Below are positions 18,644-51,500 of a stretch of 64,000 nucleotides of DNA, one piece after another. The first letter of the stretch is position 1. Each line of letters begins with the position of its first letter. The stretch comes from Utricularia gibba (lineage: Eukaryota; Streptophyta; Magnoliopsida; Lamiales; Lentibulariaceae). Position numbers and translations under genes: made by a program. The stretch is from NCBI GenBank assembly GCA_002189035.1, contig CM007992.1, positions 3,472,001 through 3,536,000 on the forward strand. The letters run 5' to 3'. The notes beneath the pieces were generated by a model. That model was not told the DNA's origin and did not search any database. It worked only from the letters and a program-made list of their open reading frames with translations.

Positions 18644-18951
18644 ATGGATATAGTGAGCAAGATGGTTGCAGAGAAGCCGGTCGTGATCATCAGCAAGCGC
18701 TCGTGTTGCATGAGCCTCAGTATCAGCTCCCTGCTCTCCGGGTTCGGGTGAAGGTGACGGTCTACGAGATCGACGAGATGGGCAGAGGCCGGGAAGTCGA
18801 GCAAGCTTTGGCGCGGCTGGGGTGCGACCCCGTCGTGCCGGCGGTTTTCATCGGCGGCAGGTTTGTCGGCGGGGCAAGCGAGGTGATGAGTCTTCACATC
18901 AATAGATCCCTCAAACCCATGCTCAAAAGCGCGGGTGCTCTTTGGGTGTAA
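18644..18951 (+). CDS. CC-type (ROXY) glutaredoxin, reading frame broken by a 1-base deletion
   Basis: An intronless plant-specific class III glutaredoxin of 102 residues if read through. These proteins bind TGA transcription factors and modulate nitrate, hormone and defence genes. The first frame gives [20 protein letters not shown] followed by the CCMS active site and stops after GFG. The second frame resumes one base out with [20 protein letters not shown], then [20 protein letters not shown] and ends GALWV, the ALW(L/V) tail used for TGA binding. Exactly one G is missing in the GGG at 18746-18748. Everything else is well conserved, so a recent loss or a sequencing undercall is more likely than an old pseudogene. 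Its closest relatives are the Arabidopsis GRXS1-S11/ROXY set. A TATA box precedes it. Confidence 0.88.
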
Positions 18952-20666
18952 CAATGCATCATTTTGAAAATTTTTTTATATACACAATAATTGTTTTTCT
19001 TCGATATTCGGCTACTTTTCTAATACTTTCTAACTATTCTCTGATTTCCTTTGTAACGCATTTGCAATTAATCATTTCTTGAAAATTGCTATTAAAATTG
19101 TAATTTTATATTATTAAAAAATTAGTAAAAATGTATATGACAACATTATTAATCAAAATATTTTGTTACCTTTATACAGGAAAAGTAAAGATATGTTTTT
19201 ATTGATATTTTATCCTTATATTCGTCAATATTGTTGAAAAAAGGTTTTTAAAAGGAAAAAAATGCTCTTTGAAGGATTCAAAGTTGCAGCGTGATGCCTT
19301 TGAATGGGACTTTGTTGTTGGAATCACAAACTATCCTTCTTTTGTTTTGTCTTAAACCAATATTTGTAAAACTTGAGTGAATTTGAGTTCGATTTCATAA
19401 TTAATTTAAGTAATTATTTTTATTTTTTCATAATATTTTTATATGAATTGAATTGGATTCGATTATTTCAAAAAATCAGTCAAATCAGATTTTGAAATAG
19501 TGATGTAGACCAAAGATCCCTATTCAAAATGATAGGGACATTTTAGATATTTTGATATATCATTAGATTGATTTTTCATAATTAGTATCATTTGAAAATA
19601 CATAAACAATATTTTAGACATGTGAGGATTTCACATTTTTTTATAAATTGAAATATATATTTTTATTTTTAAATGATTTTTATAATAAAGAAATATCATA
19701 AAATTCTCATAATCCTCCAAATGACAAGCATAATGCCATGTCATTTTACGATAGGATGCATTTGAAAAAAGGGGTTTGTTTATTCATTCAAATCCCTTCA
19801 TTGGTATGTTTATTCCTTCTAATCGATGTGCTGACCGATCAAGAGAGCATTTTAGAATTATAAGTATTACATAATATTAGTATACATATCAAAATATTAA
19901 AATAATATTTATAAAATATTTGAATTAATATTTAATTTTCTGAAATTTTAAAATATGTAAATCATTCTCACTGTTCATTTAACATTTTTATTCTCTACTT
20001 TCTTTTTATTAAAATCACTAATTTTGAAAAAATGCAAAAAAAAAAAAAAAACCAATTTTAAAAACAAAAATAATATATTTTGATATCTTTAATAACTTTC
20101 ATGAATTTAGAGATGATCATTAGATTCAATGCGTTATTAGTTTAATCTATCAAATCAATATAAAAAATTGTGATTCAACAAATACGAATTAATGTATCAA
20201 CAGATCGACATATTAGACATATCCTGTATCATGAATTGATCCGGATCATTATACAATTTATATATATTAATACGAATAAAGTTTAAATCATAAATTATGA
20301 GTCATTGATTAGACTATCTAATTCATTTGATAAAAAACATATTTTTTATTTGTTGGGTTATATTTCAAGTTCAATCTATCTAATTCATCGGGATTACTCA
20401 TATCCATGTACTATGAATCCATTTTGCACCTGTTTTTTATGATTGCAGATAACAAGTCCGACTCATAATGGGTCAACTAGATCAATTCAATGGATATCCG
20501 AGTTAACTCGTATCAGTATCCAACTCTACATGAATCCTAATCTTGTCAATATAACATAAAACACCATTATCATCCTTATTTCCCCAAAATGAAGCTAACA
20601 AGAGAAATGGAAACTAGCACATGTAAGAAGCTTACGTTCCACTTAAATACCTTGACCCACGAACCT
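18952..20666. other. Gene-free AT-rich intergenic stretch
   Basis: About 1.7 kb of strongly AT-rich DNA between the glutaredoxin and the CcmA gene, with poly(A) near 20035-20052. No coding or structural RNA signal was found. Confidence 0.5.
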
Positions 20667-48500: not shown

Positions 48501-51500
48501 TAATGTCGTGGTATTTGGTCCCCTGTGTAGTTGCATTCTCAGCACATTCCAATTTTTCAGAAGTTGAAAATATTGAAGAAAGTACACCAGAAAGTGCTGA
48601 TGAAGTCGCAATTTCCTGAGATTCAAAACCACTACTTGCAATACAATTTTCGTGGCCTTCCTTGCATGATCTTGCATCTTTGTTGGACTGATCGGACATG
48701 CTTTGACCAGGCTCTATAGCATTAAGTGTCATTGAGGTAGTTGAAATAGGTATGTTGACCATCCTACTTTCATGATCACCAGGAATTTCTTCGCTAGATT
48801 CAACGTCAGCACCTGTACTGATCTCAGAAAAAGTCGGTGCAGCTTCATTTGATAGCTTCAGCCCCCCAAACTTGGGCTGCCAATGGAGTCAACAGTACAA
48901 GGCCTTTCATGGGGAGAATGGCACTCAGAACTCTCACCAACCTCTCCAACCGCACTCTTTGGATTTTGCCCCACAGCAATTTCAACAGCAGATAATTTAG
49001 GGGCAGAATCAAGTGAAACATCACTCGCTGGTAACTCCGTATATGAAGTATCAACCAAGGGCAACCTCGGGTCTGTGATGGCATGGACTGCCAGCTTCTG
49101 CATCTCAGGTGGCTTGCTGCTGGATGCAAGAAGCGCATTTGAATTTTCTGATATTACACCAGCATTATCAGTTTCAGACACCACAGGGACGGAAACAAGA
49201 GAGCTCTCCCCGTAGAAGTCCTTGTCCAACTGTCTATCTTCTATAGACACTCCACTTTCTCTGGATGGGTGATCAGCTAGAGGGATAGCTGCTGATAATT
49301 CCGTATCCAATTTTGATGGAAAATCTCCAATGCAAGGATTATTGACTGGCTTTTCATCCGCATTTTTCTCCTTCAAACCATCTGAATTTAAGTCGGCATC
49401 TGTACCCAGAAGAAAATGGAGGCAAGGTTCAATTTGAAAAAAAAAAAAAGAAAACATCATGTATCACAATATCGACCACGATATACACCATAACTTTTCT
49501 ACTATCATTTTTTTTTTGTTGATAAAAAAAATTCCGATTCCAAGAATTTAATGTAGATGAAACAGAAAACCTACCTTTCACCGGAGGGCATGTGACAGTT
49601 TGAGATATCGACTGGTCCTCACTTACAGGTTCATTCTTGTCACCAATTTTTGCGTCTTTTTGTCCCTTAGAAACTCGGGTTTTCCTCTGTGGAGTATCAA
49701 CTGATGATGTACTCTCAACAGCCAATGCATCAGGATCAGATGATGATATAATCTCCTTTATCCTTTGTCTACGCCGTGGAGCCCCTTCAGGTGGCTGAGA
49801 ATCTCGACCACGTCCTCGGCCACGTCCCCGGCCACGTCCTCTACCATGCCCTGCCATGGATGGTGATTGAACAACAGAATTCTCCACAAGAATAACTGAA
49901 GGATTGGTAGCAATATCATCAGAAACAGACGTAGCCTTATCCCCAGGAACAGAAGTATTTTCAACTGCCACAGAACTGTCAATTTCATTAATAGAAACCA
50001 CAGAAGATTCAGGCAACGCTCCAGGTGAGATATGAGCAGTGCTAGGAGCCCGTGCTGATGAACTGGCAGGCATTGTAAAATTTGTTTCATGATCAAATTC
50101 CTTGTCTAAAACTGTAGCAGGAACAGAACTTTCTTCAGCGGGTGCTGTAGGTACGCTTGATGAAGCTCCAGTGGGCATTGAAGGTGAAACAGAAACAGTT
50201 TGCATTTTTGCCCTGTGTGTTTTCCCACGGCCTCTAGGAGCAGACTCTCCACCAGAATGAGACTTTCGTCCTCGTCCCCGTCCTCGACCTCGACCAGACC
50301 CTGAAGCAGAAGCAGCATGTGGAGAAACACCAGGACCTTGAAAGTCTGAGACAACATCAGGAGTAACAGGCAGTTCAACTGCTTGCCCACTTGCACTTGT
50401 GCTTCTACCAGATGCGGAAGCAGAAGCAGCATGTGGAGAAATACCAGGACCTTGAAAGGATGAGCAAACATCTGGAGTATTAGGCAGGTCCATCAATTGC
50501 CCACTCGTACTTCGAACAGGAGTAACATCCACCGACACATCAAGAACAGGTGCCACAGCTGAAGATTCAATACTGGAGCCATCTACCACTTTTTGGGATC
50601 CCAAAACCACCAGCTGAGAGACAGATGCAGAAGTTTCCACAACTCTTTTTGGCCTTCCTCGTCCTCTCTTCAGTGTGGTGGTTATATCTTTCTTTGGCAA
50701 TGTCATGGACTCTTCACCAGGAAGCTGCGATAATTGAGATGCTACTGGTGCAGGGCTCTCACCCTCAGCAACAACTGAGCCACATGAAGTCACAGGCAAT
50801 GTTCTTCCAGCAACTTCGTCCTTGATAACTGGAGAATCTGGAGATTCAGCTTGACACATTCTTTCAAATTCCTCTTCTGTCCATTGCTCCTCATAACAGC
50901 GCACCTGAATCAGAAAAAACATTAAATACAATCGCTGATGAAAGCTATCCCCCATGAATGGTTTTGTTTTCGGAGAAAACTAACAGTTGATATTGAACAC
51001 ATGAGCAAAGCAGCTGAACCAACCTCTCTGACACGTTTGCCTCTTCCATATTGCTGTGTGTCTAGGCCTCCAAGAATTCCACTCTTCCTCTTCATTCCAG
51101 CACTAGGTAATATAACAGGCACTGGTGCTTGGGAAATCTTCATCACTTCATAAAATGATTTCAAGTCATCCTCAGTTAAAAGTCGAGAAGGCAAAGGAGG
51201 TATTGACTTCCATTTGTCTGAAGGTTTCCCACTGAACAAGTTTTGCCATGCAACCTGCCGAGTAATGGGAACTTTTACTATATAGAGAATCAGATTTTTA
51301 AACCAAAGATGACATAACACAAACCATTTCTTCACTACGCCTCTGTTTATCAACAGCTTCAAAAATATCAATCTCTGATTCACTGCATAAAATTTGATAG
51401 TGTTAATGATCACAAGCATGCAAAAAGTAACATGAGTGAAATCTGCAGCAGAAGCTCATGAATACGAGAAACCACACAATAAATGTGAGAACAAAATGGC

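Follow-up and report, generated by a model that had tools for sequence, protein, structure and literature searches.

Frame breaks at G/C runs in the window

The window (the whole 64-kb stretch of Utricularia gibba DNA that we analyzed) contains six places where a coding frame ends and the same gene goes on in another frame. These six breaks had been claimed in an earlier note on this DNA. All six are present (6/6), and each lies at a run of G or C with one base missing. The sites and their genes are listed here by position in the window, with the strand of the gene.

18746-18748, + strand: site 1, GGG, CC-type (ROXY-like) glutaredoxin gene (about 18584-18951), frame switch
29945-29946, + strand: site 2, CC, LOB-domain (LBD) gene (about 29560-30277), with the frame broken in exon 2
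35256-35257, - strand: site 3, CC on the + strand (read as GG in the gene), remorin gene, with the frame broken at the beginning of an exon
44682-44685, - strand: site 4, CCCC on the + strand, GAUT8/9-like galacturonosyltransferase gene (42721-44728), with the break in its first exon
45545-56986, - strand: part of an SNF2/SYD-like gene (a chromatin remodeller), which contains sites 5 and 6
46402-46404, - strand: site 5, CCC on the + strand, C-terminal tail of the SNF2/SYD-like gene
48862-48867, - strand: site 6, CCCCCC on the + strand, in the same tail as site 5

Five of the six runs are where the earlier note had put them. The run at site 3 is CC at 35256-35257 rather than 35257-35258 (position 35258 is an A). 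At all six sites, the protein continues both upstream and downstream of the break, as had been claimed.

The earlier note also stated that one added base restores a conserved motif in every case; the kind of support for this varies between the sites. At sites 1 and 2, we computed a domain match across the break. If the glutaredoxin at site 1 is read across the break with an X, it matches the full Glutaredoxin domain at 38.3 bits; on their own, the downstream half reaches 21.1 bits and the upstream half has no match. At site 2, the frame changes between ...FEAVGRTVN and ...VNGALGLMETGNWHVC, and reading across the break raises the score of the LOB domain to 76.1 bits, from 59.8 bits for the upstream part only.

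At sites 3 and 4, in contrast, the restored motifs are known motifs of these families, rather than computed matches across the break. We take the motif at site 3 to be the RDxGTxM motif of remorins, and the exons downstream of the break match Remorin_C. At site 4, MAVASRGGRGGSAVRG and CSYRIFVSAMFTLLFLAAFSVL are encoded in frames that differ by one base, and together they are presumably the N-terminus of a GAUT8/9 protein. The main body of this gene belongs to Glyco_transf_8 (E = 6.6e-70).

The remaining two sites are in the SNF2/SYD-like gene, which has an SNF2-rel_dom domain (54830-55539), a SnAC domain (50922-51419), and a long open tail that extends down to 45545. At site 6, there is no conserved domain around the break. 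The evidence there is a pair of long open frames, one with 201 codons (48858-49463) and the other with 864 (46294-48888), which overlap only at the run. Site 5 has internal support for a missing base from a 198-nt tandem repeat: the steps between copies are 198, 198, and 197 nt, and the step of 197 spans the site. At the corresponding position, GGGG is present in two of the three sister copies and GGAAA in the third, as compared to three Gs at site 5 itself.

The tandem array is also a feature of the gene in its own right. It occupies 45754-46490 (- strand) in the C-terminal tail, and its roughly four copies of 198 nt (66 codons) are 79-89% alike. Also, two tRNA-Ile(AAT) genes, at 45245-45320 and 61920-61995, flank the SNF2/SYD-like region. 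Both are on the - strand, like the SNF2/SYD-like gene, and they are identical at 75 of 76 bases.

The earlier note had also claimed that coding frames carry no insertions and no errors in A/T runs (outside the window, there is one insertion; see below). Reading the NHX exchanger gene and the VAP-like gene exon by exon revealed no frame break, and the frame is kept through a run of eight As at 2257-2264 in the coding sequence of VAP. In a separate observation, a short tandem repeat lies beside an exon of a COBRA-like gene (62496-62600, + strand) and encodes a repeated peptide in an open frame.

Counts of run lengths across the 64-kb window did not reveal a clear deficit of long G/C runs, so a larger sample was needed to decide the question.

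Frame breaks in GRAS and KCS genes

Outside the window, we surveyed the GRAS and KCS families (76 genes with 112,426 coding bases). Using profiles built from intact members, we located every place where a gene goes on in another frame. We assigned each event to a run by reading both frames around the break zone, with no automatic rule, and we excluded apparent breaks that were introns (such as those in L069, L084, L085, and L094).

The survey found 22 events that are one base short, including two in L034, as compared to a single event with an extra base. Of the 22 short events, 21 are in G/C runs; the other is ambiguous: in L054, the missing base could be a G, a C, or an A. The sole insertion is an extra C in a CC at the C-terminal end of a KCS gene (L063). 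Five GRAS paralogs (L034-L037 and L070) break at or beside the same G/C-rich motif, RPGGPP and variants of it. Most of the broken genes have no other lesion.

Break zones are also enriched in long G/C runs. A G/C run of at least 5 is present in 6 of the 24 break zones, as compared to 1.0% of random zones, and a G/C run of at least 6 is present in 5 of the 24, as compared to 0.2% of random zones. A/T runs were not enriched in the 24 break zones relative to random zones.

In these families, breaks occur roughly once per 5 kb of coding sequence, and around a quarter of the genes are affected. We chose these families because they are long and intron-poor, so this rate may differ from the genome average.

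This spectrum bears on the idea that the breaks arose when two diverged haplotypes or paralogs were collapsed during assembly. Recent whole-genome duplications have been reported in U. gibba (PMC8333044). However, a collapse predicts indels of many lengths and of both signs, and nearly all of the events here are one base short at a G/C run. We give this explanation practically no weight.

Prediction of breaks in Exo70 and BAHD genes

For the Exo70 and BAHD families, we predicted the sign of each break from the coordinates alone and read the places afterwards. All eight breaks were one base short, as predicted (8/8). Seven of the eight could be placed on G/C runs, with written lengths of 2 to 5; the exception was L093. 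A ninth candidate turned out to be an intron.

The earlier note read the breaks in the window as undercalling of G/C runs and not as six pseudogenes, and the four families from elsewhere in the assembly support that reading. It had named a genome-wide indel spectrum without a bias towards G/C runs as evidence against itself. Across the four families, the bias is present: the spectrum consists almost purely of one-base deletions in G/C runs, with no clear error in an A/T run.

A few members of the GRAS, KCS, and BAHD families (L032, L050, L080, and L093) have breaks or rearranged matches that one short run cannot account for. These could be real lesions in true pseudogenes, or they could be divergent genes.

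Dependence on run length

We took the true length of a run at each break to be the observed length plus one. In the survey, the fraction of G/C runs that are short rises from 0.1% at a true length of 3 to 1.5% at 4, 5.4% at 5, and 10% at 6, and all of the runs with a true length of 7 are short (6/6). No coding G/C runs of 7 or more are left in the 112 kb of surveyed coding sequence, while there are 12 A/T runs of at least 7, all of them in frame. Among runs of at least 5, 11 of 90 G/C runs are short, versus 0 of 152 A/T runs (Fisher exact test, p = 1e-5; counting the ambiguous event in L054 as A/T gives p = 1e-4). The claim of undercalling can be refined: a run is called short with a probability that is low at lengths of 3-4 and close to certainty at 7.

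Run counts in larger samples fit a loss of longer G/C runs. In 354 kb, there are 1200, 217, 61, and 6 G/C runs of lengths 4, 5, 6, and 7; the A/T series declines smoothly. The whole assembly has 14854 exact G/C runs of length 6, 2706 of length 7, and 214 of length 8, so the ratio from one length to the next drops from 0.18 to 0.08. The steep fall above six fits the loss of longer runs, as judged from the assembly's own counts rather than against a comparison genome.

Constraint on both sides of the breaks

The breaks might instead be real mutations, so that these genes would be recent pseudogenes formed by replication slippage at G/C runs in a lineage that is known for gene loss. Slippage may favor long runs, and G/C runs are sometimes unstable in real genomes; also, L032 and L080 look disturbed in further ways. 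But slippage does not explain why A/T runs of equal length are unbroken despite being more numerous, and most of the broken genes lack a second lesion. Also, all of the G/C runs inferred to be 7 bases long are short across the 112 kb of coding sequence, and selection is unlikely to have permitted this in so many genes.

Behind a real break of some age, the downstream part of the gene would have drifted. L035 and L036 are paralogs with the same broken motif and a synonymous distance of about 0.5. Between them, dN/dS is 0.20 downstream of the break and 0.22 upstream, and downstream of the break, L035 and L036 have dN/dS of 0.12 and 0.13 against L037. The relaxed constraint after a lesion that marks a pseudogene is thus not seen in L035 and L036: the two sides are equally constrained, and values near 0.2 are not pseudogene-like. 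We consider it very improbable that the breaks in general are pseudogenizing mutations. A narrower possibility is that, hidden among the artifacts, a minority of the breaks at G/C runs arose by genuine and recent slippage in genes that otherwise remain conserved. This seems slightly more plausible, although still improbable.

Constraint on both sides would also be expected if the breaks were real and the proteins were made by ribosomal frameshifting or by transcript slippage at G/C runs. However, the breaks are in unrelated genes and at different G/C runs, with no common slip site. Across the GRAS and KCS genes, we did not find a shared slip site or signal at homologous positions, which would mark programmed frameshifting, and most paralogs read straight through at those positions. 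The dependence on run length fits base-calling error instead. There is hardly any chance that this explanation is correct.

Probable consensus errors in a presumably PacBio-only assembly

From the sequence, we are nearly certain that the genes at the six sites would be intact in the plant, and that a consensus built from PacBio reads only would often call G/C runs one base short. The assembly comprises 100.1 Mb in 516 contigs and has about 40% GC. For U. gibba, an HGAP assembly of ~88x PacBio reads is reported, with a contig N50 of 3.4 Mb (PMC5793159), and four complete chromosomes have been described for this species (PMC8333044). This assembly was probably made from PacBio continuous long reads only, with HGAP/Quiver and without polishing by short reads. 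The consensus step would then frequently drop one base from runs of G or C, with a chance of a short call that would climb steeply with run length, so that coding frames would break at the longest G/C runs. The missing bases would be expected in the underlying reads.

What we observe directly in this assembly is a signature of runs that are one base short, which is confined to G/C runs, depends on run length, and is spread across the genome, together with protein constraint on both sides of breaks. Given the dN/dS values, the run-length dependence, and the published behavior of PacBio-only assemblies, error explains the breaks far better than any alternative. The phenomenon is already known, and it is technical rather than biological.

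The closest case is the PacBio assembly of Streptomyces leeuwenhoekii, in which 2934 bases had to be restored, mostly Cs or Gs that had been omitted from runs (PMC4487206). As in U. gibba, the omissions were in runs of at least 3 and led to frame shifts. S. leeuwenhoekii is a high-GC bacterium whose sequence was fixed with Illumina contigs (PMC4487206), whereas here the fault remains, in a plant genome of ~40% GC, and was inferred from the assembly sequence alone. One-base deletions in homopolymers also persisted after Quiver polishing in Enterococcus faecium, but the passage that describes these deletions makes no distinction between G/C runs and other runs, unlike what we see (PMC4888979). 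Similarly, work on tools such as Kastor describes how frameshifts from long-read errors imitate pseudogenes, but for small genomes with a curated reference, unlike this plant assembly (PMC12007338).

Consequences for gene content

If this assembly is the U. gibba reference, then it has served in arguments about gene loss and about truncated proteins in a plant with a compact genome. The breaks cluster in G/C-rich conserved motifs. Gene counts, calls of pseudogenes, and claims of domain loss that derive from this assembly need to be checked against reads or transcripts.

We also considered whether the published truncation of DCL3 is an artifact of this kind. We dropped this idea because RNA-seq and 5' RACE confirm the truncation (PMC8333044), and a search of the whole assembly for Dicer_dimer found only three loci. 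The fault in G/C runs therefore casts no doubt on the DCL3 truncation in U. gibba (PMC8333044), and the presence of three Dicer_dimer loci agrees with the loss of this region that has been published for DCL3.
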